A stretch of DNA of 34,564 bases from positions 1 to 34,564 of IMG/VR virus record IMGVR_UViG_3300024520_000271; one strand, written 5' to 3'. The translations under genes were made by a program, and so were the position numbers. Under the pieces are notes generated by a model that made no database searches, was not told the DNA's origin, and was given only the letters and a program-made list of their open reading frames with translations. This DNA is from a virus. Positions 12,573 through 34,564 of the stretch are shown in pieces. How positions within the stretch are numbered: the stretch's first letter is position 1; every line of letters starts with the position of its first letter.

Positions 12573-12604
12573 CAAATATAATAAACTTTTTTAATATAAA
12601 CAAA
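12573..12604 (-). promoter_or_regulatory. Minus-strand promoter of the accessory cluster
   Basis: On the minus strand TATATTTG (plus 12573-12580) lies 20 bases downstream of TTTG (plus 12601-12604), matching the TTG-N19/20-TAnnTTTG Bacteroidota promoter. It directs transcription leftwards into the five small genes 12551 to 10985. Confidence 0.75.
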
Positions 12605-12617
12605 GTAAAAAAAAAAA

Positions 12618-12632
12618 ACTTTTAAATATATG
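12618..12632 (+). promoter_or_regulatory. ACTTTTAAATATATG motif, copy 2
   Basis: Identical to 2624-2638; ends in the ATG of the 55-aa gene at 12630. It lies just beyond the divergent minus-strand promoter and marks the resumption of rightward structural genes. Confidence 0.55.
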
Positions 12633-12797: not shown

Positions 12798-14303
12798 ATG
12801 GCAGACTTAGAAATAGACAATCAATACGACTTTTTTAAAGAGGTTAGGCTTGATGAAAACGGAGCTTTAGTTGTTTCATTAGAGCAAGGTGGAGGCTTCA
12901 GTTATATAGAAGATAACTACACAGCTTTGTTGTTAATAACGGGAGCTTTAGAAGGTCAATTAGCATATATTGAAAATTCAGAGGGGACAAAATGGCTGCC
13001 CTCTACATTGGGAGGATCTTATTATCCTTCAGGAATTTATCTATATAACGGCACATCTTGGGTGAGTGATAGAAACAATATAGCTTTAACTCTTAATGAT
13101 GTATTAACTAATAGAATTGTAGTTACTCAAGATAATTACACTAACACTATAGGAGGCACAATAGACTCAACAAAAGAATATTTTATTGATGGCATTGTAG
13201 ATTTAGGAGCTACGCAAATAACTGTACCCTCTACAGGAATATCTATAAAAGGTTACAACTTTGATGCAAGTGCTTTAATTAGTTCAGAAGATAATTATTC
13301 TATGTTTGTTAGTGATGTAGGAGGTAGTGGAAATGTTTTGATGTCGGATTTATATTTAACTGCTTCAGGAACTAACTCTAAAGTGTATGATCTAGTAGAT
13401 GCTACTGGATTCCATACTATAGAAGTGAATGTAATAAACTACATAGGATGCACCTCTTTAGGAGTTATTGATAATTATAGACAAGGATTAGAAGCAGGTA
13501 CAGGTCGCTTTGGCGGCACTCCTCAACTTGAATTAAAAGGTGTTTGGGTAGGGGGATATTTTATTGATACCTCAATAGTTAGAAGCTTATCAGATGGTAG
13601 CTATTCATTATTTAAAGCGGGAGTAGGTTTTTTAATGAGTTCAAGATTTAGAAGTAATATGAATATAGATTTACCTGCATCAGCTTCATTTTGTGATTTT
13701 GCCCCTTCTAACTTTGTTAATCCTTCTACTTTACAGATTACTAATATGATAATGACAAGAGCAGGAGTTGCTGATGCTACAGATTTAAATTATTTTCCTA
13801 ATATAGATCAGACTGATATTGCATCGGCATGGGATGGAAACAATGGACTACCTAATACTTTTGAGGGTGGACGCTTAACTGTTTCAAGTGAAAATCTTAC
13901 CACAATATCAGCAGGGTCTACATGGCACACTTTAAATGCTACATGGAGTGCTAATAGACTAGAGCATTTTGATTCACCTGCAGCAGGTCAACTAAGACAC
14001 TTGGGGAACTCACCTAGAGAGTTTAGATGCGTTGTGAATTTTTTAATTGAATGTACAGCTAATAAGGATTTAGGTATAAGGCTTAGAAAATGGGATGATT
14101 CAGACGGCGTGTTTGTTGACTTATCTGAAGTAAAAAGGCAAGTAAATTCATTTGTTGGAGGTAGGGACGTTGCAATTTTCAATTTTATTTTTAATGTGAA
14201 TTTAGATAAAAACGATTATGTATTTTGGCAAGTTAGAAACAATAGCGGAAGCAATAACTTAACATTAGAGTTGGATTCAGACTGGTTCTTAGAAGAAAGA
14301 TAA
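12798..14303 (+). CDS. Tail fibre / receptor-binding candidate
   Basis: The 501-aa protein starts with the RLDENG block (residues 12-29) shared with the upstream small protein, then a region with SEGTKWLPSTLGGSYYPSG that resembles fibre proteins of flavobacterial phages. Residues about 110-330 alternate short strands and Gly (IKGYNF, VLMSDLYLTASG, LELKGVWVGGYF), consistent with a right-handed beta-helix as in pectate-lyase-like tailspikes. The C-terminal ~130 residues form a separate beta domain. No catalytic residues can be assigned. The position before the tape measure gene is unusual for fibre genes but fits this phage's rearranged tail module. Confidence 0.65.
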   Translation: MADLEIDNQYDFFKEVRLDENGALVVSLEQGGGFSYIEDNYTALLLITGALEGQLAYIENSEGTKWLPSTLGGSYYPSGIYLYNGTSWVSDRNNIALTLNDVLTNRIVVTQDNYTNTIGGTIDSTKEYFIDGIVDLGATQITVPSTGISIKGYNFDASALISSEDNYSMFVSDVGGSGNVLMSDLYLTASGTNSKVYDLVDATGFHTIEVNVINYIGCTSLGVIDNYRQGLEAGTGRFGGTPQLELKGVWVGGYFIDTSIVRSLSDGSYSLFKAGVGFLMSSRFRSNMNIDLPASASFCDFAPSNFVNPSTLQITNMIMTRAGVADATDLNYFPNIDQTDIASAWDGNNGLPNTFEGGRLTVSSENLTTISAGSTWHTLNATWSANRLEHFDSPAAGQLRHLGNSPREFRCVVNFLIECTANKDLGIRLRKWDDSDGVFVDLSEVKRQVNSFVGGRDVAIFNFIFNVNLDKNDYVFWQVRNNSGSNNLTLELDSDWFLEER

Positions 14304-14304
14304 T

Positions 14305-16266
14305 ATGGCAAAAAGAGAAGTAGAAATAAAAGTAAAAGCTGATTCATCAGAAGCTGTAAGCGATGTTGATAAATTAGTTAAAGCAGTTGAAGGGTTAACT
14401 GAAAGCCTTTCGGAATCTAAAGAAGAAACTGATAAAGTAAATGATGGTTTAAAAGCTACCGAGAAATCAGGAAGTAAATCATTAAAAGCAGTTGCTACAG
14501 GTTTTAAAGGTGTAGGATTAGCTATTAAAGCAGCAGGCATAGGTTTAGTCATTGCAGCTTTTGCTGCTCTTAAAGAAATACTAGAGAAACAACAACCCGT
14601 TTTAGATTTTATAGATTCAGCTTTTACAGCTATTGGTTTAGCAGTTACTACTGTTTCTAAATCTTTACAATCATCTACCTCAGATTTTGATGCATTAGGC
14701 AAAGTAATGGGGGGAATTCTGAATCTTTTTTTACTTCCTTTTAAAGCATCTTTTTACGGTATTAAAGGGGCTGTATTAGCTTTACAGTTGGCGTGGGAAT
14801 CTTCATTTCTAGGTGGTGGAGATGAAAAGAAAATAGCCGATTTAAAACTTTCTATTGAAGAGGTCGGAGATGATCTTATAAAATTGAAAGATCAAGCTAT
14901 AGATTCAGCAAAAAATATAGGTAATAACTTAGGAGAGGCATTGGATGAAATTGCTACGGGAGCTGAAGCTGTAGGAGACGCTATAGAAGACTTAAACTTG
15001 AAAGCTATTAAAGCAGAAGCTGATAGAATTACAGCCGCTAAAAATGCTGCTAAAATAGCTGAAGCAATTAATAAAGGAAAATTCGAGGCGTTTGATAGGG
15101 AAGCAGAATTGTTAAGACAACAAAGAGATGATTATACTTTATCTTTAGATGAAAGAAAAAAAGCTAATAATGAATTAGCATTAGTATTAAATGAGCAGGA
15201 AGAAATAATGCTTCGTAATGCTCAAATAGTTATCAATGCTGCTGCAGGTGAATTAGCCGCAAATGCTACAATAGAAAATAGAGTAGCTTTAATTAATGCT
15301 CAAAATGAAGCTGAAGCGATTAGAGCAGATATAACTGGTAGACGTTCTGAACAATTAATTAATGAGATAGCTTTAGAAAAAGAAGGGGCGGATGCTGCAG
15401 AAGCTGCTAGATTGTTGGAAGAGAAACAATTAAAAGAAAGTGGTGAAAGGAAAATACAAGCAGATATAGAATTAAAACAATTAAGAGCAGATTTAGGGCT
15501 AGATGATCCTAATGCAAGCCCTGAACAAATTAAAGCTGCTTTTGAATTAAAACTACAAGCATTAAAAGAGCAGTTTGATCAGGAGCAAATATTAAAAGCA
15601 GAACAACAAGAAACGCAACAAGCAACGCAAGCAGAAATAGATGCTCAGAAGTTGTTAGATGTAGAAGCTTACGAAGCAGAGGTTGCTCAAATTAAAAAAG
15701 ACCACGCTGATGATGTTTCTGATAAAGAAAAACAAACTTCAAAAGATAAAGCAGCTTTAAGAAAGGCGGATTACGAAGCTACTATATCGGGGGCTAGTAA
15801 CATGTTAGGTAATCTTAGTCAATTAATGGATGAAGGCTCTGCAGAAGCGAAAGCAATAGCATTAGCTCAGGCTGTTATAAGTGGGATTCAGGGAGTTCAG
15901 GCTGCTTATACAAGTGGTTCTGCTGTTCCAATAGTAGGAGTAGCATTAGGGCCTATTGCTGCAGGTATTGCTGCAGGTGTAGCCGCTAAGAATATACAAA
16001 AGATTTCACAAGCTCCTACTGGTGGGAAGAAAGGTGGTAGAGGTGGGGGTGGTAGTTTTAGTATGCCTTCAATTCCTACAGGTTCTGCTTCAGCTCCTGA
16101 TATTAATCCTGAATCTTTATTTTCTACTCAAACACTAGAAGGAAACGAATCAGAAAGTATAGGAAATGGGAAAGGAATTAACCAAAAAGTTTACGTTTTA
16201 GAAAGTGATATATCTGATAAACAAAATAGAGTTTCAACTATAGAATCTGAGTCTCAAATTGGGTAG
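14305..16266 (+). CDS. Tape measure protein
   Basis: The 653-aa protein shows the tape measure layout: basic/acidic helical N-terminus (EVEIKVKADSSEAVSDVDKL), a hydrophobic Gly/Ala-rich segment (GFKGVGLAIKAAGIGLVIAAF, residues about 70-95), long charged coiled-coil helices (about 210-500), and a C-terminal Ala/Gly-rich hydrophobic region (VQAAYTSGSAVPIVGVALG, about 530-565) followed by a Gly-rich linker. It sets tail length and may help DNA passage. At roughly 0.15 nm per residue it implies a tail near 100 nm. It follows the fibre gene by one base and is last before the twin element at 16273. Confidence 0.88.
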   Translation: MAKREVEIKVKADSSEAVSDVDKLVKAVEGLTESLSESKEETDKVNDGLKATEKSGSKSLKAVATGFKGVGLAIKAAGIGLVIAAFAALKEILEKQQPVLDFIDSAFTAIGLAVTTVSKSLQSSTSDFDALGKVMGGILNLFLLPFKASFYGIKGAVLALQLAWESSFLGGGDEKKIADLKLSIEEVGDDLIKLKDQAIDSAKNIGNNLGEALDEIATGAEAVGDAIEDLNLKAIKAEADRITAAKNAAKIAEAINKGKFEAFDREAELLRQQRDDYTLSLDERKKANNELALVLNEQEEIMLRNAQIVINAAAGELAANATIENRVALINAQNEAEAIRADITGRRSEQLINEIALEKEGADAAEAARLLEEKQLKESGERKIQADIELKQLRADLGLDDPNASPEQIKAAFELKLQALKEQFDQEQILKAEQQETQQATQAEIDAQKLLDVEAYEAEVAQIKKDHADDVSDKEKQTSKDKAALRKADYEATISGASNMLGNLSQLMDEGSAEAKAIALAQAVISGIQGVQAAYTSGSAVPIVGVALGPIAAGIAAGVAAKNIQKISQAPTGGKKGGRGGGGSFSMPSIPTGSASAPDINPESLFSTQTLEGNESESIGNGKGINQKVYVLESDISDKQNRVSTIESESQIG

Positions 16267-16272
16267 TGAAAT

Positions 16273-16382
16273 TTGTTTGAAAACGGGAAAAAATGAAAAA
16301 TTTCCCACTTTGAAACAATCCTTTGCTATCTATACTTGAGCCATATCAAATGTACGCTAGTATATATATATATATAACAACA
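16273..16382 (+). repeat. Twin ~110-bp structured element, copy A
   Basis: This intergenic element matches 33939-34046. First half: arms GTTTGAAAACGGGAAA and TTTCCCACTTTGAAAC are identical in both copies and pair at 13 of 16 positions, while the loop between them differs. Second half: a conserved GCTATC, then a GCTAGTATATA run of (TA)8 here and (TA)7 in copy B, ending ACAACA. It lies just after the tape measure gene and 10 bases before the protease gene ATG. A regulatory RNA leader, promoter or replication/packaging site is possible. Confidence 0.75.
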
Positions 16383-16392
16383 AATAAAAATT

Positions 16393-17022
16393 ATGAAAGA
16401 ATTATTAGTTGAATTAACAGTTAACGAATTAGAAGAAACAGGCATAGATATTATATCTTTTGTAGAAGCTCCTGCTATAGAAACTAACTTCATGTATTTT
16501 AGTAAAAATAAGAAGCAAAACTTCTCTTCTATTGATGCTGAAAAACGAATAGTAGTAGGAGCAGCTATGTTAGCTAATGAAAAAATAGTTAGAGAAGATG
16601 CAGATGGTAATCCATATTTTGTGTATTTCTCAGAAGAAACAGTTAGAAAGTGCCAAGAATTATTTTTCAAAAAAGGTAATACCAAAGGAACTAATGTAGA
16701 TCATGAACAAACAAAAGTTAGTTCAGGAGTTACTGTGGTAGAATCATGGATAGTAGAAAACCCTGAAATGGATAAATCAAAGCATTTAGGCTATGATGAT
16801 ATACCAAAAGGTAGTTGGTTTGTTTCTTACAAAGTAGATGATGATGCATTATGGGAGAAAGTAAAATCAGGAGAGGTACAAGGGTTTAGTGTAGAGGGAG
16901 TATTTACGCAAACAGTTGTAGATGATAAAAACATAGAGCAGGAGATGCAATCTATTTTAAATGGTTGTGGTTCTCGTATTGATAAAATACTAGCATTAAA
17001 AGAAAAATTAAACATTTCATAA
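16393..17022 (+). CDS. XkdF-like prohead protease
   Basis: The 209-aa product matches the phage serine protease XkdF type: MKELLVELTVNELEETGIDI, ISFVEAPAIETNFMYFS, RIVVGAAMLANEKIVR (residues about 52-67), then NVDHEQTKVSSGVTVVESW (about 100-118), where His is the usual catalytic candidate, and VKSGEVQGFSVEGVF (about 157-171) with the catalytic Ser candidate in GFSVEG. The enzyme matures the prohead by cleaving the scaffold and capsid. It is followed directly by scaffold-like and capsid genes, as expected. Its ATG lies ten bases after the twin element copy A, which probably controls the head operon. Confidence 0.85.
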   Translation: MKELLVELTVNELEETGIDIISFVEAPAIETNFMYFSKNKKQNFSSIDAEKRIVVGAAMLANEKIVREDADGNPYFVYFSEETVRKCQELFFKKGNTKGTNVDHEQTKVSSGVTVVESWIVENPEMDKSKHLGYDDIPKGSWFVSYKVDDDALWEKVKSGEVQGFSVEGVFTQTVVDDKNIEQEMQSILNGCGSRIDKILALKEKLNIS

Positions 17023-17029
17023 TTAAATT

Positions 17030-17044
17030 ACTTTTAAATATATA
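17030..17044 (+). promoter_or_regulatory. ACTTTTAAATATAT motif, copy 3
   Basis: ACTTTTAAATATAT followed by ATAA instead of G. Unlike the other copies it is separated from the start codon (17065) by about 20 bases, which argues against a pure start-codon element. Confidence 0.5.
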
Positions 17045-18673: not shown

Positions 18674-19189
18674 ATGGCAACATGTACGTTAACAGCAGGA
18701 ATACCTTTAGCTTGTTTAGAGTCTACAGGGGGAATTAAAAACGTTTATATCTCAGCTTTTGCAGATGCAGCAACATTTACTTTGACAGCAGATGTTATTA
18801 CAGCTTCAGTAGGAACTGGAACTTTTTATACTTTTAAATTCAGACCTCAGACTGCTTCTCTAAATGAAGAGGGAACACACTCACAAGAAAACGGTACTAA
18901 CTTCTGGACTCAAACTTTAGCTATGATTTTCCATAAAATGGAAACAAGCAAAAGAAACAACTTATTACTATTAGCAGGAACACAAATGCACGTAATAGTT
19001 GAAACTCAAAATGGAGATTACTGGCTATTAGGAAAAGAAAACGGTGCTTATTTAACTGGCTCTACTTCTACTACTGGGCAAGGGTATGGAGATTTAAGCG
19101 GTTACAATGTAACTATTACAGGAACAGAACCAAAATTTGCTACTGAGATGGATTCAACTACTTTTGGATTACTTACATTATCAGCATAG
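18674..19189 (+). CDS. Major tail tube protein candidate
   Basis: The 171-aa product (MATCTLTAGIPLACLESTGG) contains FRPQTASLNEEGTHSQENG (residues about 56-74), TNFWTQTLAMIFHKMETSKR and LLAGTQMHVIVETQNGDYW. This set of motifs is typical of a conserved structural protein following the capsid in Bacteroidota siphophages, which I take to be the tail tube. It is a compact beta-protein of the right size. A terminator follows, in line with a single strongly expressed unit. The tape measure and chaperone genes lie elsewhere, so the tube assignment is from sequence pattern and not from neighbours. Confidence 0.65.
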   Translation: MATCTLTAGIPLACLESTGGIKNVYISAFADAATFTLTADVITASVGTGTFYTFKFRPQTASLNEEGTHSQENGTNFWTQTLAMIFHKMETSKRNNLLLLAGTQMHVIVETQNGDYWLLGKENGAYLTGSTSTTGQGYGDLSGYNVTITGTEPKFATEMDSTTFGLLTLSA

Positions 19190-19240: not shown

Positions 19241-19262
19241 ATAAACATTGCATAAATAATTA

Positions 19263-19277
19263 ACTTTTAAATATATG
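19263..19277 (+). promoter_or_regulatory. ACTTTTAAATATATG motif, copy 4
   Basis: Identical to the copies at 2624 and 12618, ending in the ATG of the 54-aa gene at 19275, and again placed just after a terminator. Confidence 0.55.
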
Positions 19278-24348: not shown

Positions 24349-24567
24349 ATGAATTGGATTAAGAGATTATTTAGTAAAAAACCACTAAACAAGCAATGTG
24401 ATATACATTGTGTTAGCAGTAGTTTTAATTGCTTAGGCTGTAATAAAGTTGTAGATGGTGGCGACTACTTATATATAAAAGAATTTAGAGATGAATTTGC
24501 AAAAAACAGATGCAAAAAATGTGTAACAGAAATAGTTGAAAGCGGTAAATTAGTTGAGATACTTTAA
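24349..24567 (+). CDS. 72-aa Cys-rich small protein
   Basis: First gene of the second small-gene array. The N-terminus MNWIKRLFSKK is amphipathic and basic, and the body has CDIHC, NCLGCNKVV and RCKKCVTEI, a double CxxC zinc-binding arrangement. The look is bacterial more than phage-structural. It is preceded by an A-rich leader and flanked by elements of the shared spacer family. No known function. Confidence 0.6.
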   Translation: MNWIKRLFSKKPLNKQCDIHCVSSSFNCLGCNKVVDGGDYLYIKEFRDEFAKNRCKKCVTEIVESGKLVEIL

Positions 24568-29126: not shown

Positions 29127-29276
29127 ATGGAAACAAGAGCGAAACAAACGGAACATTTTAAAGGGCTTATGTATGATTTAGAAGATAAAAATGATAGAAT
29201 AGCTTTGTTATGGAGCTTAGTAAATGCTAATAAAATAAATAGAAGGCAGTTTAAGGAATTAATTAATTGTTTATAA
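29127..29276 (+). CDS. 49-aa helical protein
   Basis: The ORF gives a 49-residue charged helical protein (METRAKQTEHFKGLMYDLED at the start, NRRQFKELINCL at the end). It has a promoter 60 bases upstream. Its stop codon TAA lies in the left arm of an inverted repeat (29275-29324), an arrangement seen at cassette-type boundaries in this genome. No family known. Confidence 0.55.
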   Translation: METRAKQTEHFKGLMYDLEDKNDRIALLWSLVNANKINRRQFKELINCL

Positions 29277-29324
29277 CACCAAACTATGTAACGTAAGCGA
29301 AGCGGTGTTATATAGTTTGGTGTT
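29275..29324 (+). repeat. Inter-gene inverted repeat E10
   Basis: AACACCAAACTATGTAAC (29275-29292) pairs with GTTATATAGTTTGGTGTT (29307-29324) at 17 of 18 positions. It shares ACACCRARCTATGTAACG and CGGTGTTATAT with E9 at 25064-25100. No T-run follows, so it is not a simple terminator. Confidence 0.7.
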
Positions 29325-29340
29325 AGCAAAAAAAATAAAT

Positions 29341-32281: not shown

Positions 32282-32518
32282 ATGGCAAAGAAAAAAGCAA
32301 GTGCAAAAGGTAGAAAGCCTTTTAAAAGGAAAGTAACTACAATTACTAAAGACTTAAAGCAAGTTGATTTAGAAGATTCTATTGAAGAAGTAACTGAAGA
32401 GCTTAAAAAGAAGACTATCGTATTAGATAAAGGTATCTTAAATTTCAACTGGGTAGCTCGTGAATATAATATTTCTGTAGATGAAGCAAAGAAATTAGTA
32501 AAAGAAGCTAATAAATAA
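32282..32518 (+). CDS. Hypothetical 78-aa protein
   Basis: The product begins with a Lys-rich tail (MAKKKASAKGRKPFKRKVTT), continues with an acidic helix (LKQVDLEDSIEEVTEELKKK) and ends with ILNFNWVAREYNISVDEAKK, which resembles a helix-turn-helix. Its stop overlaps the start of the sigma-like gene by one base (TAATG), so both are probably translated together; the pair may be functionally linked. No family recognised. Confidence 0.65.
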   Translation: MAKKKASAKGRKPFKRKVTTITKDLKQVDLEDSIEEVTEELKKKTIVLDKGILNFNWVAREYNISVDEAKKLVKEANK

Positions 32519-33114
32519 TGAGAGATTTAATTTTAATAGAAGTTTATTTTGATGAAACTTTAAGAGGCTATATTAAGAAGTTAACCCCTCATTTATATGA
32601 GGAGGCTCATTCTCAATTTATGTTAAACGTAATGACTAAAATTGATGAAGATAAGTTAGTTCGTTTACATGAATCTAAAGAGCTTCAATATTACCTTGTA
32701 ACAATGGCTCGAAATATGGTAGTTAATTTTTGTTCTGATTTCAATAAGAAGTATAGAGATTATTTAAGTTATGATAAATGGTTAGACATAGATGGATATG
32801 AAGAAGATAAACAACGCTTCCTATCTAATGAGTGTAGCGTAGAGGAGGGGCTTATAGATGTAGAAAAAGAGTATCTAATTAATGAGCTTATATTAGATGT
32901 TAAAGCATGGTTAAAAGGTAGAGCCGAAAGAATCGAAGGTGCTTATTATGATGAAATACTATTTAATAAGTATTTTAGTGGTGGTTTAACCTTTAGAGAG
33001 ATAGCGGAACAAACAAAGATACCATTATCAGAAATTTACAACGGTGTATCTAACGCACAAAATATAGTATTAATGAAATTTCAACAAAGATATGACAACA
33101 TTATTAATCAATAG
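32518..33114 (+). CDS. Sigma-70-like transcription factor
   Basis: The 198-aa protein has two regions of the sigma-70/ECF layout: an N-terminal helical domain with a region 2-like ELQYYLVTMARNMVVNFC plus NKKYRDYLSY (residues about 56-85), and a C-terminal region 4-like HTH, LTFREIAEQTKIPLSEIYN (157-175) followed by the recognition-helix continuation GVSNAQNIVLMKFQQRY. Between them lies an acidic linker. It may redirect host RNA polymerase to phage promoters; the recurrent ACTTTTAAATATAT motif is one candidate target. Upstream genes are coupled. Confidence 0.72.
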   Translation: MRDLILIEVYFDETLRGYIKKLTPHLYEEAHSQFMLNVMTKIDEDKLVRLHESKELQYYLVTMARNMVVNFCSDFNKKYRDYLSYDKWLDIDGYEEDKQRFLSNECSVEEGLIDVEKEYLINELILDVKAWLKGRAERIEGAYYDEILFNKYFSGGLTFREIAEQTKIPLSEIYNGVSNAQNIVLMKFQQRYDNIINQ

Positions 33115-33316: not shown

Positions 33317-33498
33317 TAGAAGATTTAGAGTGGGTTGCATCCCTAACACGTTTAAAACAAGAAGATAAGCAAAGACTTTTAAATATACATAGAACTTTGT
33401 TTACTTCAATACCTGATCCTTGTATGAATTGTCCCGATCAAATTAGGCAAGCAGTAAACAGAATAAAAAAATACCATGAAAAAGAAAGAAATAAGTGA
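33313..33498 (+). CDS. 61-aa CxxC protein
   Basis: The product is helical (MIEDLEWVASLTRLKQEDKQ) with a C-terminal DPCMNCPDQIRQAVNRIKKY. This CxxC followed by an amphipathic helix occurs in small uncharacterised proteins ahead of terminase genes in Bacteroidota phages. Start overlaps the preceding stop (ATGA), and the 3' end overlaps the small terminase by 23 bases. Confidence 0.65.
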   Translation: MIEDLEWVASLTRLKQEDKQRLLNIHRTLFTSIPDPCMNCPDQIRQAVNRIKKYHEKERNK

Positions 33499-33937
33499 GA
33501 AACATAAATCTGTTGTAGATGAATACTTTTTAAATGGATTCAGTAAACCTTCAGCATATTCTACACAATATGAAGTAGAAGGTATTGCAGCCTCGAGAGG
33601 CTTTTATAAGATGTGTTTAAGACCTGAAGTTAAAGAATACTTCATGGCATCACAAAAAGACCTAGCAGCCTCAATAGGACTATCTAAAGAGGTTATCGTA
33701 GGGACACTAGCAAAAGATATAGAATCTTACAATGAATTCGTAGCTTTAGCGAATCAGGATAATCTTACAGAGAAGCAAGAAAAAAAATTCAATAGATTAG
33801 CACAAATCTACAACCATAATTCTAAGATAAAATCTATGGAAGTTATATCTAAATTATTAGGACTTTTTGAGCCTGAAAAAGTAGAGATAAAACAGGTAAA
33901 TTATACGGTAGATTTTGGTACAAAAAATGATGCCTAA
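33476..33937 (+). CDS. terS: Terminase small subunit
   Basis: The 153-aa protein follows the small terminase pattern: KHKSVVDEYFLNGFSKPSAY (residues about 10-29), VEGIAASRGFYKMCLRPEVK (about 34-53; the Y..A..lL..P.V motif), then a long helix (DLAASIGLSKEVIVGTLAKD) and a C-terminal segment VEIKQVNYTVDFG that would contact TerL. It recognises the packaging site. The gene ends two bases before element copy B (33939-34046), which is thus a candidate region for pac or cos. Confidence 0.82.
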   Translation: MKKKEISEKHKSVVDEYFLNGFSKPSAYSTQYEVEGIAASRGFYKMCLRPEVKEYFMASQKDLAASIGLSKEVIVGTLAKDIESYNEFVALANQDNLTEKQEKKFNRLAQIYNHNSKIKSMEVISKLLGLFEPEKVEIKQVNYTVDFGTKNDA

Positions 33938-33938
33938 C

Positions 33939-34046
33939 TTGTTTGAAAACGGGAAATTTTCTTTTTTTTCCCACTTTGAAACAAATTTGCCCTTGCTATC
34001 ATTGGCTCATATTAAATGTGCGCTAGTATATATATATATAACAACA
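33939..34046 (+). repeat. Twin ~110-bp structured element, copy B
   Basis: Same arms as copy A (GTTTGAAAACGGGAAA 33941-33956 and TTTCCCACTTTGAAAC), a different T-rich loop, then GCTATC, GCGCTAG and (TA)7 with ACAACA. It follows terS directly and precedes a promoter box and the next gene. Copy A and copy B are 17,666 bp apart on a 34,395-bp circle, nearly opposite each other. Confidence 0.75.
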
Positions 34047-34104: not shown

Positions 34105-34446
34105 ATGACAATAGATGAACAACAAGAAGACGAATATTTCAATAGAAAAATATATATAAATGGTAAATTTATGTTGGATGATAAATTTGATGTAGATGGA
34201 GGTATTAAAATTGACTTCGCTTTTTTTCATGGTACAATGTTTGAATTTGAAACTTTATTAATAAAACATAAAGACATTGTAGATAAATATAAATTAGAAT
34301 ACACGTTTTTAACTGCAGAAGAGATAAGACTATTAGAATTACCGACACCAAACTTTAAAAGTATCAATACTAATATAGCAGAAGAAAAAAGATATTTAAG
34401 AACTGGTTATAACACTATTACTTCAGGAACATTTAAACAATATTAA
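34105..34446 (+). CDS. Hypothetical 113-aa protein
   Basis: The product (MTIDEQQEDEYFNRKIYING) is an acidic alpha/beta protein with GGIKIDFAFFHGTMFEFETL and EYTFLTAEEIRLLELPTPNF. It follows element copy B and a promoter box and is followed one base later by the HTH-like gene repeated at both ends of the window, so it begins the packaging transcript that leads into the large terminase. No family recognised. Confidence 0.7.
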   Translation: MTIDEQQEDEYFNRKIYINGKFMLDDKFDVDGGIKIDFAFFHGTMFEFETLLIKHKDIVDKYKLEYTFLTAEEIRLLELPTPNFKSINTNIAEEKRYLRTGYNTITSGTFKQY

Positions 34447-34564
34447 CATGAGAATAGAAGAACAATTAATACAAAAGAAAACATTTAAACAAATTGCAAA
34501 TTTCTTAGGTATATCAGAAGGGGATGTATCAGAAAGTTTAAATAGAACAACACCACGCAAAATA
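34396..34564. repeat. Terminal direct repeat, right copy
   Basis: Repeats 1-169 with six substitutions; see the left copy. It contains the 3' end of the 113-aa gene and the first 117 bases of the HTH-like gene. Confidence 0.9.
34448..34564 (+). CDS. HTH-like gene, partial second copy
   Basis: This is the first 39 codons of the gene described at 53-307, cut by the window's end. Relative to that copy, codon 25 changes GGC to GGG, codon 34 GCT to ACA (Ala to Thr), codon 35 ACT to ACA and codon 37 AGA to CGC. It is the same locus on the circular genome, not a second gene. Confidence 0.85.
   Translation, partial: MRIEEQLIQKKTFKQIANFLGISEGDVSESLNRTTPRKI

Follow-up and report, generated by a model that had tools for sequence, protein, structure and literature searches.

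A twin dyad-bearing intergenic element, a candidate regulated promoter module preceding the head and packaging genes of a Bacteroidota phage

Gene setting of the two copies

The window analysed here is a whole stretch of 34,564 nucleotides, taken from IMG/VR, of a virus whose hosts are marine-type Bacteroidota bacteria. The ends of the record repeat each other (1-169 and 34396-34564, 96% identity), being identical except near the 3' end, where ...GCTACTCCAAGAAAAATA stands against ...ACAACACCACGCAAAATA, a divergence that perhaps reflects population variation at the assembly join. Such a terminal repeat fits a circularly permuted genome, about 34,395 bp in size. An intergenic element occurs in it twice, beginning at 16273 and at 33939, exactly where a preliminary description of this DNA had placed it; the same description set the copies nearly half a genome apart, which holds approximately, given that they are separated by 17,666 nt one way and by about 16,729 the other way round the circle. 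The genes that surround them are as follows:

14305..16266, plus strand: tape measure protein, stopping 6 nt before the copy 1 dyad
16393..17022, plus strand: head maturation protease (Peptidase_S78_2, profile match 6e-19), the first gene after copy 1
32518..33114, plus strand: candidate ECF-like sigma factor, upstream of the terminase genes (TIGR02937, 2e-4, below the curated cut-off)
33476..33937, plus strand: small-terminase candidate, called on a weak basis, stopping 1 nt before the copy 2 dyad
34105..34446, plus strand: first gene after copy 2, 113 aa, function unassigned
996-2225: TerL, downstream of copy 2 and of the 34105..34446 gene

The head protease, MCP and portal genes come after copy 1 and TerL after copy 2, in agreement with the earlier assignment of the copies to the fronts of the head and packaging genes. 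Apart from a minus-strand block at about 10.9-12.6 kb, all genes downstream of both copies are on the plus strand, so that either copy could head a long transcription unit, within which internal promoters are likely. Elsewhere in the window, the protein encoded at 12798-14303 aligns over 80% of its length, at about 53% identity, with proteins from Pseudoalteromonas phages H105/1, HS1 and HS5, which infect hosts of a different phylum; it is read as a horizontally moved protein, perhaps one that binds receptors. A strong inverted repeat (29267-29332, arms of 26 nt, 85% complementary) lies just before the helicase gene.

Architecture of the element

Each copy is roughly 105 bases long and opens with a dyad, which is followed by 42 bases in register between the copies, a TA tract and ACAACA:

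16273..16318, plus strand: copy 1 dyad, a candidate operator with 18-nt arms and a 10-nt spacer, predicted to span about -70 to -25
16309..16312, plus strand: candidate -33 box TTTG of copy 1, within the 3' arm
16331..16338, plus strand: candidate -7 box TATACTTG of copy 1, 18 nt past TTTG (consensus TAnnTTTG)
16343..16382, plus strand: conserved leader start of copy 1, ATATCAAATGTACGCTAG(TA)8ACAACA, with a predicted +1 at 16343
16361..16376, plus strand: (TA)8 tract of copy 1, a hallmark common to the relatives
33939..33984, plus strand: copy 2 dyad, a candidate operator with arms as in copy 1 and an unrelated loop
33975..33978, plus strand: candidate -33 box TTTG of copy 2, within the 3' arm
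33997..34004, plus strand: candidate -7 box TATCATTG of copy 2, 18 nt past TTTG
34009..34046, plus strand: conserved leader start of copy 2, ATATTAAATGTGCGCTAG(TA)7ACAACA
34027-34040: (TA)7 tract of copy 2

The arms (TTGTTTGAAAACGGGAAA / TTTCCCACTTTGAAACAA) are identical between the copies at 36/36 positions. The earlier report of unchanged arms is thus borne out, though their length is 18 nt rather than 16 and their self-complementarity is imperfect, with 15 of the 18 positions pairing. The loop is indeed variable, as had been noted, having 10 nt in each copy and one base of the ten in common, and the reading of (TA)8 against (TA)7 before ACAACA was likewise correct. Over all in-register columns 66/90 match (arms 36/36, loop 1/10, rest 29/44), and the probability of all 36 arm columns landing among the 66 matches is 3e-7. 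Furthermore, each dyad exceeds chance within its own gap, being matched by 1/300 dinucleotide shuffles for copy 1 and 3/300 for copy 2. A search for further half-sites with at most three mismatches returned just two more, which is no more than chance.

The hexamer GCTATC, previously singled out as a conserved middle, occurs in both copies (16325-16330 and 33995-34000) and was rejected as a box because it is 4 nt out of register between them. The core that is in register, at the same offsets in both copies, reads TTTG-N18-TAT(A/C)(C/A)TTG, and the register fixed by the arms and the (TA)n tract pairs TATACTTG with TATCATTG. Since the -7 box of Bacteroidota promoters, TAnnTTTG, occupies -12 to -5 (PMC9723704), the predicted transcription starts are 16343 and 34009. 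The copies become closely similar again one base before the predicted start, as (C)ATATYAAATGTRCGCTAG(TA)n, so that the transcript would begin with the conserved tail. The (TA)n tract may be part of this leader, or may itself be the -10-like region of a second start. The dyad centre is predicted to lie at about -47 (-47.5 from the inferred start), with the dyad covering the -33 box.

Promoter matches of such quality are common by chance in this AT-rich window, at about 20 per strand, and hence the case for a promoter is built on register and comparison in addition to the consensus. Better consensus matches are found, for example, on the minus strand near 12604 and on the plus strand near 19136. 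The former region (12573-12604, minus) holds a perfect host-type promoter, TTTG-N20-TATATTTG, before the only minus-strand gene block (about 10.9-12.1 kb), which likely comprises early genes. In sigma-A promoters of Bacteroidota, TTTG precedes the -7 box by about 18-20 nt, and the N18 spacing of the element lies in this range. The likeness to these primary-sigma promoters (-33 TTTG, -7 TAnnTTTG) consists of TTTG in place and of TATnnTTG, which fits 5/6 defined -7 positions in both window copies and fewer in the relatives described below; the differences are the 18-nt spacer of the window copies, a position 5 that is not T, and relatives that do not have the TTG.

Counterparts in related phages

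Four relatives were identified by their head proteases, three of them (L060, L061 and L062) about 70% identical to that of the window and the fourth (L128) 63% identical, and all four show this layout in the corresponding gap, where the tape measure gene is followed by the protease gene. From the upstream stop codon to (TA)n there are 93, 93, 92 and 93 nt in the relatives, against 94 nt for copy 1 and 89 nt for copy 2 of the window, the value for copy 2 being measured from a different upstream gene than in the other elements. The relatives have TA runs of (TA)6-7, and runs of (TA)6 or longer are found only in these six elements across 1.56 Mb of related loci. Ahead of the TA run, TTTG (CTTG in L061 and ATTG in L062) is found at a distance of 49-52 nt and a TATA-like box at one of 28-30 nt; the TTTG-N18 spacing is found in both window copies, L060 and L128, with CTTG in its place in L061. 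The dyad centre lies 65-66 nt from the TA run in both window copies, L060 and L061, and 70 nt from it in L062. A core matching TTTG/TATA at 7 or more of 8 positions occurs in all elements but that of L062, as against 1% under a Markov null, a figure that overstates the evidence since the motif TTTG-N18-TATA was chosen after inspecting the elements. The -7 boxes of the relatives (TATAGGGT, CATAGCGT and TCTAGGGA) do not carry the TTG of the host consensus. In a further relative, L004, with a protease of 49% identity, the contig begins inside an apparent element tail.

The arms behave differently from this geometry. Between lineages, the dyad region is identical at 13-21 of 46 positions, which equals background, despite the adjacent proteases being about 70% identical. 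L060 and L061 instead carry a different dyad, GTACTTTTTTAAAAAAGTAC flanked by GTATCAA/TTGACAC, which 2/300 and 7/300 shuffles match, respectively; the dyad of L062 is weaker and asymmetric (19/300), and the gap of L128 contains no significant dyad, with 72/300 shuffles doing as well. L060 and L061 are near-identical here and count as a single lineage, so that two independent lineages, rather than three, are available in addition to that of the window. Conservation in relatives, on which the preliminary description had staked its interpretation, holds in part: the exact sequence is not conserved, while in three of the four gaps (representing two independent lineages, one of them weakly) the arm changes are compensated. 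Sequence searches yielded no copies of the arms. The exact arm pattern had no match in the viral contig collection and a relaxed pattern three chance matches; in bacterial genome contigs the relaxed pattern gave 12 matches, all in unrelated settings and all short of the full dyad. Alignment of the portal revealed no prophages in the bacterial genome contigs, and blastn of each copy against phages gave chance-level matches only. Together, identity within the genome and replacement between genomes at a fixed core spacing favour a shared operator of a fast-evolving regulator. What the sequences show directly is the repeat, the dyad, the geometry and its recurrence at one gene junction in the relatives; promoter activity, the start site and action on DNA rather than RNA are inferred.

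A structured RNA leader, as originally suggested, could also account for several of these features. The dyad would then form a hairpin in a read-through transcript, for instance a cis-acting antiterminator or processing site heading two long transcripts, and it would be contained in any such transcript. On either strand it is predicted to fold more stably than shuffled sequence (z about -3); it has a loop of equal length in the two copies, sits at operon starts, and shows compensated arm turnover in L060/L061. However, wobble pairs favour neither strand consistently, the window gaining them on the minus strand and L061 on the plus strand, and the arms have been replaced, although antiterminators that contact RNA polymerase are expected to keep their sequence. 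Rfam covariance models gave no match to the element above the gathering score, and L128 is without the hairpin. Moreover, the predicted start site is downstream of the dyad, and the leader past this +1 folds no better than shuffles in both window copies and L060, although it does in L062. This places the RNA reading behind a DNA site, and we regard it as unlikely.

The position of the dyad close behind a gene, starting 1-17 nt past the upstream stop codon in every dyad-bearing element, raises the alternative that it closes the upstream operon, as a terminator or 3' stabiliser, and that only the remainder of the element is promoter; in L060 the stem is followed by a T-rich stretch. Yet no terminator was called at copy 1 and none is listed at copy 2, neither window copy has a T run after the stem, and a terminator would not require arms identical at 36/36 positions, such that this explanation appears quite improbable.

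Distant relatives with the same gene order (L006, L063-L066, L129-L131 and others) do not have the element, their equivalent gap being short (8-79 nt) or holding something else; that of L066 (about 1890-2010) contains a different repeated element, a tandem TTTAACAC.TGTTCATTTTGTGTTCAACAGAAA. This distribution bears on the ori- or pac-type sites that had been put forward. In a replication origin used twice, the dyad would be the initiator site and (TA)n the unwinding element, and the six elements do place a dyad beside a meltable TA tract at fixed spacing. Against an origin, the element is missing from those distant relatives, replication genes are not adjacent, and cumulative GC skew, proposed earlier as a check, has no extreme at either copy; we hold an origin to be very unlikely. 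Copy 2 also lies between the small-terminase candidate and TerL, as a pac or cos packaging signal might, but copy 1 is 17 kb off among structural genes, far from the terminase genes, and the element of the relatives is at the head-gene site, making a packaging role scarcely credible. The twin status itself is seen in the window genome alone, the contigs of the relatives ending before the terminase genes. A search for intergenic repeats found no comparable twin element in other relatives, and, across the relatives, a search with TerL for copy-2 regions gave no match and one with the sigma candidate a single distant match.

A candidate regulated promoter module

In light of the above observations, we incline to the view that the element is a regulated phage promoter module used twice, in which one phage regulator acting on the dyad probably switches both units. 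Of the functions first listed for the element, a phage promoter combined with a dimeric protein site fits best, with the -33 box in the 3' arm, the -7 box 18 nt on, and the geometry kept. According to this proposal, the 46-bp dyad would be an operator and would overlap the -33 box in a promoter of Bacteroidota type (TTTG-N18-TATnnTTG), and transcription from about 16343 and 34009 would yield leaders beginning ATATYAAATGTRCGCTAG(TA)nACAACA. A single DNA-binding regulator encoded by the phage would occupy the dyad, at about -47, and thereby switch two units at once, that of the head genes and that of the packaging and tail genes. Because one regulator would bind both dyads, the arms would stay identical within the genome even as the loops drift; joint divergence of regulator and site would account for the different arms, in a preserved geometry, of related phages.

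Candidates for this regulator are the ECF-like sigma factor (32518-33114) and small HTH-like proteins; the products of 32282-32518 and 24349-24567 may be considered as well. The sigma factor candidate occupies the same slot as gp35 of Inhavirus, annotated as sigma-70 region 2, but the two do not align, and an AlphaFold model of the candidate made without an alignment is poor (pLDDT 49). Among the HTH-like proteins, the one at 53-307, downstream of copy 2, has a weak Sigma70_r4-like match (0.0016, below the cut-off). The identity of the regulator, the sign of the regulation and its timing, like every statement on transcription here, are predictions from sequence.

Several known systems offer partial parallels. 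The late promoters of phage P2 depend on the activator Ogr/Delta, which acts on a dyad centred at about -55 upstream of a weak core at several promoters. The present element resembles them in that its two predicted promoters share an upstream dyad through which one phage protein would control more than one unit; it differs in a predicted dyad centre at about -47, in the presence of a -33 box and in its unrelated hosts. No Ogr/Delta homologue was found among the proteins scanned, a 72-aa Cys-rich protein (24349-24567) having no Ogr_Delta match. In heteroimmune lambda-type phages, the OL/OR operators are alike within a genome and different between related genomes, with one regulator serving two units, and the window element resembles them in the first two respects and, under the present proposal, would do so in the third; it has one dyad per promoter and same-strand units; neither a repressor nor an integrase was seen among the window proteins scanned. 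The put sites of HK022 are RNA antiterminators that occur twice per genome as hairpins starting two long units, and their RNA is conserved. The element is like them in copy number and in the placing of hairpins at the starts of two long units, and unlike them in that its arms are replaced in relatives and its hairpin is probably upstream of the start; a conserved RNA stem of the put kind was not found, the arm region being at background identity between lineages.

The closest named relatives found are the Inhavirus members, Nonlabens phages P12024L and P12024S, which share the gene order protease, portal, SSB, helicase, VRR-NUC, sigma, TerL. They differ from the window in having neither a twin element nor a (TA)6 run, and their late genes start at another repeated motif, ...CGTTAATAT..ATG. 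In P12024L (L161), (A)AAACAA...CGTTAATAT occurs at 140, 2992, 5377, 22055, 24737, 25995 and 27573, a few nucleotides before the ATG of gp01, gp05, gp08, gp37, gp42, gp45 and gp46. Its counterpart in the window is a second repeat motif of fixed spacing, TAAACA-N15-ACTTTTAAATATAT (2603-2636, 12597-12630, 17009-17043 and 19242-19275). Three of its copies run up to the ATG of a gene and the remaining one stops a little short of a gene; the motif resembles a late promoter read by a phage sigma factor, from which mRNAs with no leader, or with a very short one, would arise. In L060-L062 the protease ATG is preceded by GAACA-N14-ACTT(T/A)T. This pattern suggests that phage-sigma promoters abutting start codons are general in this group.

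As a more tentative possibility, the element might represent a new class of master promoter in Bacteroidota phages. Its parts, set at fixed distances, would be the 46-bp dyad, the N18 core and a (TA)6-8 tract that is obligatory and transcribed first; its duplication would let a single fast-evolving regulator drive two units, and operator specificity would be replaced wholesale between phages about 70% identical in the adjacent protein. The timing of gene expression in Bacteroidota phages is little understood. A module that is recognisable by its layout (dyad, TTTG-N18-TATA, TA tract) despite changed letters would make the regulated promoters of uncultured phages easier to approach, and might serve as a test case for the coevolution of regulators and operators beyond the classical lambdoid systems.
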